NCBI GenBank assembly: GCA_021531755.1
Contig: JADYUK010000002.1
Coordinates: 124,001-188,000, forward strand
Length of the DNA: 64,000 bases
Origin: Hoylesella loescheii
GTDB lineage: Bacteria; Bacteroidota; Bacteroidia; Bacteroidales; Bacteroidaceae
Direction: 5' to 3'
Positions 6,881 to 30,088 of this stretch are shown here, piece by piece; position 1 is the first letter of the stretch; the number at the start of each line of letters is the position of its first letter. The position numbers and the translations under genes are program-made. The notes under the pieces were generated by a model. The model made no database searches. It worked only from the letters and a program-made list of their open reading frames with translations, and was not told the origin of the DNA.

Positions 6881-7056
6881 GGAAGAGGATGGGGGATGGG
6901 GTGTTTTCTTGTGATAGATGATGGCTGCCGTTACCGTCTCAATATGTTTTTTCCACTCTGGTGGCTGTCAGTGCTTACGGCTATTCTTTTCGCTGACTGT
7001 ACGGGCTTGCCGAGAGGGGATGTGTATAGCGGCTGGGCGTGGCTGTGTGGATAAAT

Positions 7057-7112
7057 GCCAATCCCTCCACACCACGGGGGTGATATTCCCTTGTGGGTGT
7101 GGAGGGATTGGC
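7057..7112. terminator. Long perfect hairpin downstream of the GNAT gene
   Basis: A perfect 17-bp inverted repeat (7057-7073 with 7096-7112) encloses a 22-base loop that has its own GGG/CCC pairing. It lies 81 bases beyond the stop of the minus-strand gene at 7193. There is no T run, so a terminator or 3'-end-protecting role is inferred only from position. Confidence 0.5.
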
Positions 7113-7192
7113 GTGCTGTATATGCTGTGGCCTTATATGTGCTGGCTTATGGGGTGGCTGTCACGCCCGCTTGCGGGGCATGCCAGGCGGGG

Positions 7193-15954: not shown

Positions 15955-16019
15955 CCTGATATCCCAGCCCCGCATAATGGACGGGGCCATAGAAAGGGAG
16001 ATATAAGGACATGAAACGG

Positions 16020-16084
16020 GGAAGCCCCCTCAGGCAGAGCTTGTTAGAGACTCTTGTCTCACTGCTCTGCCTGAGGGGGCTTCC
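16020..16084. terminator. 21-bp perfect nested hairpin between convergent genes
   Basis: A perfect 21-bp inverted repeat (16020-16040 with 16064-16084) flanks a 23-base loop that itself pairs GAGAC with GTCTC. It lies between the ends of the permease (15954) and the FKBP gene (16277), where a bidirectional terminator is expected. No T run follows on either side. The remainder of the 322-base gap has no gene. Confidence 0.6.
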
Positions 16085-16276
16085 TTGCTTATTGTTGTCT
16101 GCCTGTTCCGTTGTTGTTGTACTGGCGGCGGCGGGCTTACTGCTGGCCCATAAACGCTTGTCGCAAATCAGGGCATCAGATTCCAAATCAGTCTCGTTTT
16201 TATGTATGCCAGATTGTATCCGCCCTCCTGTGTCTTATAGGGATGTAAAGAAAGGATGAGTCTTGATGGTACACTC

Positions 16277-26977: not shown

Positions 26978-27080
26978 TTTTTTCTTATATATCCTTTTAC
27001 CTTGTTTCTTTCTTTACATTTTGTTCCTGCCCATACATATATACCTCTCCCCCTCTAACATTATATATAAAAAAACGATG

Positions 27081-27088
27081 CAAATTTA
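27081..27088 (-). promoter_or_regulatory. -7 promoter box for metF
   Basis: The minus strand reads TAAATTTG, 104 bases before the metF start. Confidence 0.6.
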
Positions 27089-27131
27089 CAAAAAATATCA
27101 TAATATCATGCCTTTTCTCCAGAAATTATTA

Positions 27132-27139
27132 TAATTTTG
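27132..27139 (+). promoter_or_regulatory. -7 promoter box for the HIT gene
   Basis: The plus strand reads TAATTTTG, with a TTTT tract about 19 bases upstream. The start codon is at 27215. Confidence 0.65.
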
Positions 27140-27214
27140 CGTCTGTAAAGCCTGCCGCGCCCTCTTCCATGCGGAAGGTCTGACACACTTGTTAATCATA
27201 AATCTTTTTATCTT

Positions 27215-27640
27215 ATGTACAGCGATCCATCAGCCTGTCTCTACTGCACCAACAACGAGACACTCCATTCTCTCATGATTGAGATATGCCATCTGCGTGT
27301 CTCACGTCTTTTCCTCTTCAAGGAGCAGACATACCGCGGCCGCTGCCTCGTGGCATACGACCATCATGTCAATGACCTCAACGAGCTCTCTGAGAGCGAG
27401 CGTAACGATTTCATGGCCGATGTCTGCCAGGCGACAAGTGCCATGCAGAGAGCCTTCGAGCCGGAGAAAATCAACTACGGGGCATTCTCTGACACCCTCT
27501 CGCATCTCCACTTCCATCTCGTCCCGAAATATATCGGCGGGCCAGACTATCCCGGGCTCTTCCGCATGAATCCTGGCGAGGTATACCTCTCTGACGAGGA
27601 ATACAGCGACATGATATCGCGCATAAAGGCCGAGCTCTGA
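27215..27640 (+). CDS. HIT-family nucleotide-binding protein
   Basis: The 141-residue protein has the histidine-triad signature HLHFHLVP with His97, His99 and His101. A Cys8-x2-Cys11 pair is a likely zinc site, and INYGAFSDTLSHLH fits the phosphate-binding loop. HIT proteins hydrolyse or transfer nucleotide phosphoramidates or dinucleotides; the exact substrate here is unknown. A hairpin that may end the transcript lies about 100 bases downstream. Confidence 0.9.
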   Translation: MYSDPSACLYCTNNETLHSLMIEICHLRVSRLFLFKEQTYRGRCLVAYDHHVNDLNELSESERNDFMADVCQATSAMQRAFEPEKINYGAFSDTLSHLHFHLVPKYIGGPDYPGLFRMNPGEVYLSDEEYSDMISRIKAEL

Positions 27641-27742
27641 CGCTCAGCCACATATCGTCATCCAGACGAGGCGGGCATGGCTCTCGCTGACACCAGCTGC
27701 TGGCGCTAACCGATGCCCCCTCTCTTGTCTCATCCCCTGCAC

Positions 27743-27792
27743 AATCCCCCTCCCGTATCTCCGTCCACATGGCGGCGTGCGAGAGGGGGATT
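27743..27792. terminator. Hairpin downstream of the HIT gene
   Basis: A perfect 10-bp stem (AATCCCCCTC 27743-27752 with GAGGGGGATT 27783-27792) is followed by ATTCAT rather than a T run. It may act as a terminator for the plus-strand gene that ends at 27640. Confidence 0.5.
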
Positions 27793-27844
27793 ATTCATAT
27801 CAGGCAATGTTGCATAACCCCCTCACGGAATCTGGCAAGCGGTG

Positions 27845-28091
27845 GGCAGAATGTCAGGATAATCTCATGCCGGCGAACCACCGGCCGACTGATGGTGGGG
27901 ATATGCAGGGTGTAAGCTGAATGATGCGTTCTGAACGCAAAGTGTCACACCGTTTCTCCACAGAAAAAGCATCGCTCCTGACCTGCCATAGACTCGCAGA
28001 GTCCGATTCGGTTGTCTGAAACCGACTCCCCGCAAGGCGGTCCATGATGAGAGATACTGAACCACCGCCCCATTCAGTATCTCCCGCCTTG
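27845..28091 (-). ncRNA. Candidate structured RNA or structured repeat element
   Basis: This part of the 967-base gap between the HIT and Abi genes folds into several helices at once. Read on the minus strand they are: CAAGGCGG/CCGCCTTG plus GAGATACTGAA/TTCAGTATCTC (28091-28033, 8 + 11 bp with a 10-base bulge); a CGGTT/AACCG hairpin inside GAGT/ACTC; and GGCAG-GTCAGGA pairing with TCCTGAC-ATT-CTGCC (27987-27976 with 27859-27845). The last helix encloses GGTGT/ACACC around the hairpin GCGTT-CAG-AACGC, and a GCCGG/CCGGC hairpin. The strand is uncertain because the helices exist in both. No promoter box is clear. A 101-residue open frame crosses the minus strand but looks non-protein-like. Confidence 0.35.
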
Positions 28092-28506
28092 CCATACATA
28101 GCCTCTGACTTGTGTATCCTGCACTTCCTGCAATGCCTATCCGCTACCTTTCGCCTCATGTCATGCCGTAGTGTCCATAACCGGATTTTTACATCGTCTT
28201 GATATATAGGTGTTTACATGGATGGGAAATTCTGGCGTATTCCGCCGCGTGCGCCGTGTTGCGGCCAGATTCTCCGCTCTCAGCGGTTTCCCCCGAGCCG
28301 TTTTGTAAGCATATCCCCGCATCCTGCTTGCATAATGTCATGCGGAGTGGCGCATAGATAATTGTGGATATAAATCCCCATTGCAAGTAATTCCCTGAAA
28401 CCATTTATGTTCTCCAGATATCAATCATATCCTCATGCCAATAACCACGCATCGCTGTTACCTTTAGCGTCAAAATCATTTTTTCCATAAAATAAATTGG
28501 ATATAA

Positions 28507-28538
28507 TTTGCTCATTCAAGGAAAATAATGTAATTTTG
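28507..28538 (+). promoter_or_regulatory. Promoter of the Abi_2 gene
   Basis: TTTG (28507-28510), a 20-base spacer and TAATTTTG (28531-28538) fit the consensus. The promoter excludes an upstream in-frame start at 28497 and supports the ATG at 28608. From 28092 to 28506 I see no gene. Confidence 0.75.
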
Positions 28539-28607
28539 CAGCAACAGATTCCGCCACGCTTCCCATTTGAACAGCGAACCAGGGCGGAACTTCGTTTTTA
28601 TGGAAAT

Positions 28608-29501
28608 ATGGATTACACAAAGAATGCTCTTGATTATATACAGATATTGGCTCAACTAAAAGGGAGAGGATTGCTATTCAAGGATGAAGAACGTGCAGTC
28701 GAGGTGTTGGCTAATATCAGTTACTTTCGTATTGCAAACTATCTTAGGTATTTTGAGATAGATAACTACAGACACTTGTATATACCTAACACCAATTTTG
28801 AGGATGTGGTTTGTATCTATTATTTCGATAAAAAACTTCGTAGTCTTCTTTTCACGGCAATCCAAAGCATAGAGGTGTCGTTGCGGTCAAAGGTGATACA
28901 TCATGTAGCCCTTTCTCATGGGCCTTTCTGGTTTGCGGATTCCAATCTGTGTATTAACAGTGTGATGTATGCAGACAATTTGAATGCCATAAAGAGAGAG
29001 ATTCAGCGTTCAAAAGAGGATTTTATACAGGAGCATTTTCGGAAATATAGTTCTCCTGATATTCCTCCAGTATGGAAGACACTGGAGGTTGCATCTTTTG
29101 GCACATTGTCCAAACTGTTTTGCAACTTAAATGACAATCGTGTCAAAAAGCAAATTGCCAGACTGTATAATCTCCCTCAACATCAAGTTCTGGAAAGTTG
29201 GATAAAGTGTATTGTAATTCTTAGAAACTGTATTGCTCACCACGCACGTGTCTGGAACCGCCGTTTTCCACAAATGCCACAATTATCAATGAGAGCCAGA
29301 GGAAAATGGATTGATAGTTCAAATATCCGTCCCAACAAACTATACGCACAGATATGTTGTCTGGCATATCTGTTGGACAGCATATATCCCCAAAATGATT
29401 TCAAGACACAGATTAAGAATCTGTTATATGAATATCCAGAGATAAATACCCATCATATGGGTTTCCCAAATGGTTGGGAGAAAGAAATGCTATGGATATA
29501 A
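28608..29501 (+). CDS. Abi_2-family (AbiD/AbiF-like) HEPN defence protein
   Basis: The 297-residue protein matches the Abi_2 family of abortive-infection proteins. The start MDYTKNALDYIQILAQLKGR, the ISYFRIANYLRYF segment, FDKKLRSLLFTAIQSIEVSLRS and the C-terminal HEPN motif LRNCIAHHARVWNRR (Arg206-x4-His211, the usual RNase signature) are all present. Family knowledge suggests it acts on RNA or translation during phage infection. AbiF-type relatives are sometimes paired with a small RNA. It stands alone on AT-rich DNA with its own promoter, next to remnants of other mobile or restriction-like genes, which suggests horizontal acquisition. Confidence 0.88.
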   Translation: MDYTKNALDYIQILAQLKGRGLLFKDEERAVEVLANISYFRIANYLRYFEIDNYRHLYIPNTNFEDVVCIYYFDKKLRSLLFTAIQSIEVSLRSKVIHHVALSHGPFWFADSNLCINSVMYADNLNAIKREIQRSKEDFIQEHFRKYSSPDIPPVWKTLEVASFGTLSKLFCNLNDNRVKKQIARLYNLPQHQVLESWIKCIVILRNCIAHHARVWNRRFPQMPQLSMRARGKWIDSSNIRPNKLYAQICCLAYLLDSIYPQNDFKTQIKNLLYEYPEINTHHMGFPNGWEKEMLWI

Positions 29502-29691
29502 AAGACATCTTTGCAGATTACACTCCGATATTTTCTGTCCGGTAAACAGTCTCAATACCTTTATATCATAGATTATTCTATAGGATAAGCCTATTCAGAC
29601 AAATAAGTATTGTAGTCCGATAAACCTAACGTCACTCGTCCAAAAGTTTAACCCAACAGTAATAAAAGAACTTGTAAGGTTATATCTTTAG

Positions 29692-29843
29692 TTAAAGCCT
29701 AACCCCTTGCCTTGGCAAATTTCCAGTAATCTCTTGTATCACACGGTCCACCATAGACATTTCCTCTTTGGATAATGCGAAATAGCAGTCAATCGTCAGG
29801 CGGTTGGCTGCTTTTTGGTTACGCTCTGCATGAGCAATCATTA
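29692..29843 (-). pseudogene. C-terminal fragment of an unidentified protein, possibly a DNA methyltransferase
   Basis: About 49 codons ending in a stop encode LMIAHAERNQKAANRLTIDC followed by YFALSKEEMSMVDRVIQEI and a short tail. The sequence reads like the extreme C-terminus of a longer protein; the DCYFALSKEEM pattern recalls the end of type IIG/type I methyltransferases, but that is only a resemblance. The upstream part is replaced by group II intron-like sequence on the opposite strand, so the gene is broken. Confidence 0.4.
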
Positions 29844-29945
29844 ACGGGTGTAAGTCCCGAGTGAGCCCTATTAGTGGGAAGGCTATAGCCAAAGGTAAGG
29901 GTACAACCAACAGGTAGAATCTTGTTTCGTACTGATGTGACACCA
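29844..29945 (+). mobile_element. Fragment of a group II intron (domain I-like)
   Basis: The plus-strand stretch contains CGGGTGTAAGTCCCG, then GGGAAGGCTATAGCCAAAGG and TAAGGGTACAACCAACAGG. These match, in order, the conserved 5' domain I segments of bacterial group II introns as I remember them. No reverse-transcriptase gene, domain V or 5' GTGYG end is present, so this is a remnant. It abuts the broken gene at 29692-29843. A domain search or covariance scan would be needed to confirm it. Confidence 0.55.
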
Positions 29946-29996
29946 ACCGCCCAGAGGATTCAATTGTTAATGAAATGTATATTTCATGCCATATGC

Positions 29997-30027
29997 TTTG
30001 ATGTGAGACGATTATACATTATATTTG
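29997..30027 (+). promoter_or_regulatory. Promoter of the CoA-disulfide reductase fusion
   Basis: TTTG (29997-30000), a 19-base spacer and TATATTTG (30020-30027) match the Bacteroidetes consensus exactly. Transcription from here favours the ATG at 30089 over the GTG at 30056, though both remain possible. Confidence 0.8.
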
Positions 30028-30088
30028 CAGTATTATCGTGTGAAGAATATCATACGTGGCAAAAAATCATCCAAAAAGACAGCACAGA

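Follow-up and report, generated by a model that had tools for sequence, protein, structure and literature searches.

The window analysed here, a 64,000-nucleotide stretch of a Hoylesella loescheii contig, contains a gene for a HIT-family protein followed on the same strand by a gene of the Abi_2 family, abiF. An earlier note had described the DNA between them as a gene-free gap of 967 bases, which holds with the HIT stop at 27640 and the abiF start at ATG 28608, a start chosen from homologous starts. The note had flagged 247 bases of this gap as a multi-helix element and had missed its last 100 bases, where a promoter match and a conserved small RNA (sRNA) stand directly in front of abiF (Table 1). 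Eight bases separate the U-run of the sRNA from the abiF start codon.

Table 1. Features of the HIT–abiF region (window coordinates).
Feature	Position	Strand	Remarks
HIT-family protein gene	27215..27640	+	left bound of the gap
Multi-helix element of the earlier note	27845..28091	.	GC-rich, strongly folding, single-copy; judged a species-specific spacer
Putative Bacteroidetes-type promoter TTTG-N20-TAATTTTG of the sRNA, probably also of abiF	28507..28538	+	
Putative AbiF-associated small RNA, TTC-loop variant of abiF RNA	28543..28599	+	R1 match 28540-28600, 84.6 bits; ends inferred
sRNA outer stem (7 bp)	28549-28555 with 28583-28589	+	
sRNA bulged A	28556	+	
sRNA inner stem (3 bp)	28557-28559 with 28574-28576	+	
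sRNA loop, 14 nt	28560-28573	+	
sRNA 3' internal loop, 6 nt	28577-28582	+	
sRNA U-run	28595-28599	+	
abiF, 297-aa Abi_2/AbiD-F HEPN protein	28608..29501	+	R-x4-H motif (RNCIAH); start chosen from homologues

The abiF product matches the Abi_2 family PF07751 (1e-53, 182.8 bits against a cut-off of 25.6), the PADLOC model AbiD (4.7e-76) and PDB entry 8VZ6, the PbAbiF–AbiFr complex (E 5e-62). The HEPN motif has the form R-x4-6-H. The window protein is homologous to PbAbiF over 284 residues (38% identity over 289), and its RNCIAH is aligned with RNSCCH of 8VZ6, so that R-x4-H is conserved. Judged by its sequence, the 297-aa protein is AbiF, and its gene is the one Abi_2 gene of its own genome. It sits in an island of low G+C (34–44%) at 28400-30050, with surroundings at 54–58%, consistent with acquisition of the module.

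The helices reported for the flagged element are present. The bulged hairpin pairs completely in its outer part (28033-28040 with 28084-28091, 8/8) and over 11 bp in its inner part (28051-28061 with 28073-28083), the long-range helix of 27845-27859 with 27976-27987 consists of 5 and 7 bp flanking a 3-nt bulge, and the two-part hairpin placed at about 27995-28030 corresponds to two small hairpins at 27991-28028. The 247-nt element folds at -87.0 kcal/mol on the plus and -93.9 kcal/mol on the minus strand (z = -2.94 and -2.82; 1 of 200 shuffles equally good on each strand), and since it folds well on both, the fold names no transcript. Taken by itself, the bulged hairpin (28032-28092) is strong for its composition, with z -6.96. 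As a control the 64-kb window was covered on both strands by 492 tiles of 247 nt, with 20 shuffles per tile, and a few of these tiles fall within the gap itself: the mean z is -0.54, the 5th percentile -2.96 and the 1st percentile -3.89. Three shifted plus-strand tiles over the element reach -3.53, -4.09 and -3.72, the second of them beyond the 1st percentile. The pairing had been considered unusual, which these controls do not bear out: 26 of the 492 tiles reach z <= -2.9, and at 43 places in the window, the element's own counted, a 69-nt stretch equals or exceeds the large hairpin in stability. The fold is above average, yet not rare for the DNA of this window. Of all 69-nt hairpins in the window, the strongest (-57.8 kcal/mol) lies at 16009-16093, where GGAAGCCCCCTCAGGCAGAGC and its complement, about 21 bp each, form an inverted repeat behind a coding region, probably a terminator; the second strongest (-49.6 kcal/mol) lies at 7041-7133.

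We searched for relatives of the flagged stretch at several levels, with the two best first-look candidates scored per genome in the genus and family searches. Among 398 same-genus genomes (own counted), 54 match 27820-28480 at E<=0.1, and the matches besides the genome's own cover only 18–44 bases; among 399 same-family genomes (own counted), three match 27700-28400 at E 0.001, namely the genome itself and two over about 30 bases. There is no match among 50,697 phage and 72,556 plasmid records, and no homologue was found in any of these collections. Its own genome holds one copy of the element, the next match there reaching E 0.24 over 37 nt; a dispersed palindromic repeat or MITE, the other identity that had been offered and one that requires several copies per genome, was rejected on this ground. 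Known RNA families give only three sub-threshold matches in the gap (two miRNA models and a wingless localisation element), and no exact TTTG-N17-22-TANNTTTG promoter lies on either strand of 27640-28480. With neither a homologue nor an exact promoter of the window's type, the proposal of a new ncRNA at 27845-28091 is not sustained. The suspicion that protein-like readings across it are spurious fits our results: neither the 101-aa frame nor any of the eight stop-to-stop frames (E up to 1) has a Pfam match, and the longest of the latter, of 119 aa, has no relative in viral contigs.

The element is best read as a species-specific spacer, possibly the relic of something lost, with a very local RNA still conceivable. 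That the whole of 27640-28480 derives from a gene that has decayed, or from a mobile insertion since lost, is a possibility that we take seriously, while holding it to be somewhat short of an even chance. Such an origin would leave behind coding-like G+C and missing syntenic counterparts; G+C is indeed of coding type, at 54–59% across 27500-28124 against 36% in the AT-rich spacer 27000-27249, and the HIT orthologues (70–86% identity) present in 7 of the 40 genomes searched, own apart, are in all seven followed by different DNA, the spacer not being common to these relatives. However, the stop-to-stop frames lack Pfam matches, flanking direct repeats of note are absent, and the phage and plasmid records, as well as viral contigs searched with the hairpin and one frame, yield nothing. 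A phage, plasmid or viral origin of the flagged stretch was set aside on the same searches.

The other end of the gap behaves differently. With 27640-28540 as the query, other genomes of the genus match solely at the right edge, that is, at the promoter; the query was consequently moved to 28480-28640, and the sRNA was found. With this query 97 of 200 genus genomes match at E 0.01, many of them weakly through the promoter only, and these weak matches were left out of use; the strong ones have in common the promoter, a CAACAG-like start, a stem-loop and a T-run. TTTG-N20-TAATTTTG is what we take to be a promoter of Bacteroidetes type. Ten exact TTTG-N17-22-TANNTTTG sites occur in the window against 0.33 expected, the one at 28507-28538 fronts the sRNA, and related loci show a similar promoter layout. 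The earlier note had conceived of an AbiF-linked small RNA at this locus: such an RNA does lie in the same gap, but the place was wrong, the RNA being encoded about 450 bases downstream of the flagged element. Strong folding alone had led to the wrong 250 bases, whereas the conserved RNA folds unremarkably as a single sequence of 57 nt (z -1.37). A generic terminator scan of 27600-28700 marked nothing, the 3' end of the sRNA included.

The secondary structure of the sRNA was drawn from the window copy and from Rfam family RF03085, and it is supported by comparison. In 22 aligned sRNAs, 95.0% of 220 cells are paired, 6 of the 10 pairs have changes on both sides (20 cells), and covariation is 0.264 against 0.126 in shuffles (0/500 as high) and 0.005–0.075 in slid controls; the degenerate RNA L038 was retained in alignment A1. 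In a further set of 91 distinct RNAs, found with a search pattern, stem pairs that the pattern does not fix covary as well: pair 6 is C-G in 53, T-A in 26 and T-G in 7 (87/91 standard), and pair 7 is T-A in 35 and A-T in 31 (71/91 standard). The sequences behind the model R1 were selected by BLAST for similarity to the window copy, and the model finds that copy as its sole match both in the window (E up to 10) and in its own genome (E 0.01).

The architecture resembles that of RF03085, which likewise precedes abi_2 genes and consists of an outer stem, a single bulged A, a 3-bp inner stem, a loop and a 6-nt 3' internal loop. The letters differ: the inner stem is CGC/GCG in the window RNA and AGC/GCU in RF03085, the 3' internal loop is AACCAG as against CAAAUC, and the loop is TTCCCATTTGAACA (14 nt) as against CUCUCAACGAU (11 nt). 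The RF03085 consensus letters AGC/GCU and CAAAUC are therefore lacking from the window copy (28557-28582). RF03085 has no match at its gathering score (37 bits) in the window and none in 27600-28700 at E up to 10; in the whole genome, the best 150 of 1723 candidates contain no match at E up to 10. Among 20 hand-picked loci, the gathering score is passed by 8 of the 10 with a CTC loop and by none of the 10 with a TTC loop (TTCC in nine, TTCT in one). Going by these scores, CTC-loop copies form a bridge between TTC-type RNAs and RF03085. Sorted by regular expression, 120 near full-length Abi_2 ORFs (82 distinct) comprise 53 with an RNA of TTC type, 34 with one of CTC type, 10 with one of RF03085 type, 12 with variants and 11 with none; several of these 11 show related hairpins by eye, including a class with a GGC/GCC inner stem. 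At the four loci of this class (L208, L209, L211 and L212) a hairpin of the form CCCG..GGC, loop, GCC..CGGG, followed by a T-run, lies just upstream of Abi_2 without an R1 match.

Next we consider how regularly the RNA accompanies Abi_2 genes. Across 100 genus genomes, from which 16 of the 22 R1 sequences also come, there are 66 long Abi_2 domains, each covering 156 model positions or more; 39 of them have an R1 match 43–140 nt upstream on the same strand. The remaining 27 have none within 500 nt upstream, and several of those fetched carry other RNA classes. Conversely, an Abi_2 match lies within 500 nt downstream of 53 of 105 R1 matches and of 24 of 40 at >=60 bits, leaving 16 of the 40 strong matches without one. 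A degenerate pattern run over GTDB contigs gave at least 118 loci; 55 of 80 among the matches listed are from named Bacteroidales, if Minthosoma belongs there, as we assume. We read 119 RNA copies from GTDB contigs, of which 94 had at least 1,100 nt of downstream sequence: a near full-length Abi_2 starts within 420 nt in 52, a partial one is present in 12, and none is within reach in 30. An Abi_2 gene lies directly behind the RNA in Halalkalibacter, Desulfosporosinus, Legionella, Panacagrimonas, Hymenobacter and an acidobacterial genome, and upstream of it in Lichenibacterium; in Planococcus, Sporosarcina and Tumebacillus none lies directly behind the RNA in the available stretch. At least two pattern matches, L075 and L152, look like chance. 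In a phylum-wide draw of 296 genomes, 38 have an R1 match at 1e-4, and at 13 of the 19 loci fetched (own apart) Abi_2, in one case partial, follows within 150 nt of the RNA; one of the six loci without it ends 67 bases past the RNA. The RNA is thus frequently found in front of Abi_2 genes across several phyla.

The classes of RNA cluster on the tree of AbiF proteins. A quick tree built from the 82 distinct proteins requires 11 changes of the five class labels, against 37.2 in shuffles (0/200 as low), with variants and 8 of the 11 unclassed RNAs labelled by hand and three proteins kept as 'none'. Sampling is biased towards the TTC and CTC types, since the pattern that yielded 118 of the loci was designed for these, and any label clusters more readily when near-copies are present. 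RF03085-type RNAs fall on one side of a branch with support 100 and the GGC class likewise with 99, while neither TTC (9 changes) nor CTC (7 changes) forms a clean clade. Of the larger, well-supported sets that surround the window protein, the smallest comprises 16 CTC and 5 TTC rows. The 11 rows nearest to PbAbiF (10 distinct proteins, 92.6–50.4% identity) have RNAs of RF03085 type (10 by regular expression, L199 by eye), unlike the window protein's own neighbourhood, where the types are TTC or CTC.

The position of the sRNA, its promoter match, the compensatory changes, the association with Abi_2 genes and the clustering of classes on the tree together support the following reading, which by analogy with known systems we hold to be very probable: the functional RNA of the gap would be the sRNA at 28543-28599, roughly 57 nt long and serving as a type III-like antitoxin of the AbiF HEPN RNase, and the flagged 247 bases would be spacer with fortuitous hairpins. 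The sRNA would be transcribed from its own promoter and end at the stem and U-run, most transcripts probably stopping before abiF, and read-through of the U-run would give toxin mRNA from the same promoter. As in the Prevotellaceae AbiF–AbiFr complex and with RCd22 of Clostridioides difficile, the sRNA would bind the AbiF HEPN ribonuclease and keep it inactive. It is from these analogies that we infer transcription, termination, binding, toxin inhibition and a role in phage defence for this locus.

The layout reported for RCd22–AbiFCd of C. difficile phi027 (PMC12373285) is similar: an ncRNA that acts as an RNA antitoxin lies upstream of abiF under one promoter, with a terminator between the two; RCd22 is read through into abiF from the one promoter and neutralises AbiFCd by direct binding, in cis and in trans. 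RCd22 has two abiF motifs and occurs as a main 98-nt and a full 132-nt form, whereas the window RNA has one motif and an inferred length of about 57 nt and, unlike RCd22, a promoter of Bacteroidetes type. PbAbiF is reported to be a HEPN RNase that forms dimers, each monomer binding one AbiFr (PMC12737573), and there too a small RNA is encoded with the gene (PMC12373285, PMC12737573). Neutralisation of the toxin through direct RNA binding, which defines type III toxin–antitoxin systems, is thus reported for AbiFr as well as RCd22. Both papers hold AbiF to be the ancestor of Cas13 and the AbiF RNA to be the forerunner of the guide RNA. Tandem R1 matches occur at G032:C5:2271-2465 and G083:C21:45812-46007; at the former locus the pair precedes a single Abi_2 gene, an arrangement similar to the two motifs of RCd22.

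We consider it quite unlikely that 28543-28599 works solely in cis, as a leader or attenuator of abiF, rather than as an RNA antitoxin acting in trans. Such a role would suit the usual position close before the gene and the U-run at the end, and RCd22 itself also lowers abiF expression at the transcriptional level (PMC12373285). However, RNA copies persist where abiF behind them is truncated or absent, the letters of the loop and internal loop are conserved, RNA class is clustered on the protein tree, as expected if RNA and protein touch, and RCd22 acts in cis and in trans through direct binding (PMC12373285). Least probable, and to our minds very improbable, is that 27845-28091 represents a genuine structured ncRNA or regulatory element confined to this lineage (such as a long abiF 5' leader or a 3' element of the HIT mRNA), too young or too fast-evolving for homologues in the sampled species: its z near -2.9 on both strands, the shifted tiles down to -4.09, the hairpin's z of -6.96 and a G+C unlike that of the AT-rich spacer speak for it, but the genus and family genomes hold no homologue among the two best candidates scored per genome, an exact Bacteroidetes-type promoter is lacking, and equally exceptional tiles and equally stable hairpins recur across the window as counted above.

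On the reading of the sRNA as the antitoxin of AbiF, the locus adds to a known theme. AbiF RNA antitoxins are already known; the additions here are an RNA class that the Rfam model does not cover, the range over which this class occurs, and the way it clusters among the proteins. This class, invisible to Rfam, is common before Abi_2 genes in Prevotella and other Bacteroidales, and because the Rfam model does not see it, AbiF toxins can look solitary despite an unannotated antitoxin. No description of the TTC-loop class was found in the literature searched; Zilberzwige-Tal 2025 and Weinberg 2017 (the latter reportedly a motif paper), which lay outside that search, may describe such RNAs. The clustering of classes on the tree offers ready pairs for orthogonality testing. 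The AbiF modules of a single genus carry four or more RNA classes (those of RF03085 type, with a CTC loop, with a TTC loop and with a GGC/GCC inner stem). We suggest, tentatively and with considerable doubt, that these may be mutually non-neutralising antitoxin specificities; in that case orphan RNAs with a truncated or missing toxin gene would serve as trans anti-addiction RNAs against incoming cognate modules, and tandem copies before one gene would be array-like precursors toward Cas13-type arrays.

Thirteen orphan loci of the genus were looked at individually. Six (L215, L217, L222, L224, L230 and L231) have Abi_2-like coding sequence right behind the RNA, which in L230 is truncated by a contig end and in L224 gives a weak match (E 8e-4); weak Abi_2 matches that lie elsewhere are all that L220 and L237 show, and L226 and L241 have no Abi_2 match, these classes leaving out L238, L242 and L243. 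The simple reading of several orphans is that the toxin was lost and the RNA retained. At five further RNA copies without Abi_2 another good frame comes next, and these frames look like a nucleotidyltransferase (L070), a HEPN protein (L160), a PIN protein (L061), a RhuM-like protein (L123) and a phage antirepressor-like protein (L147).
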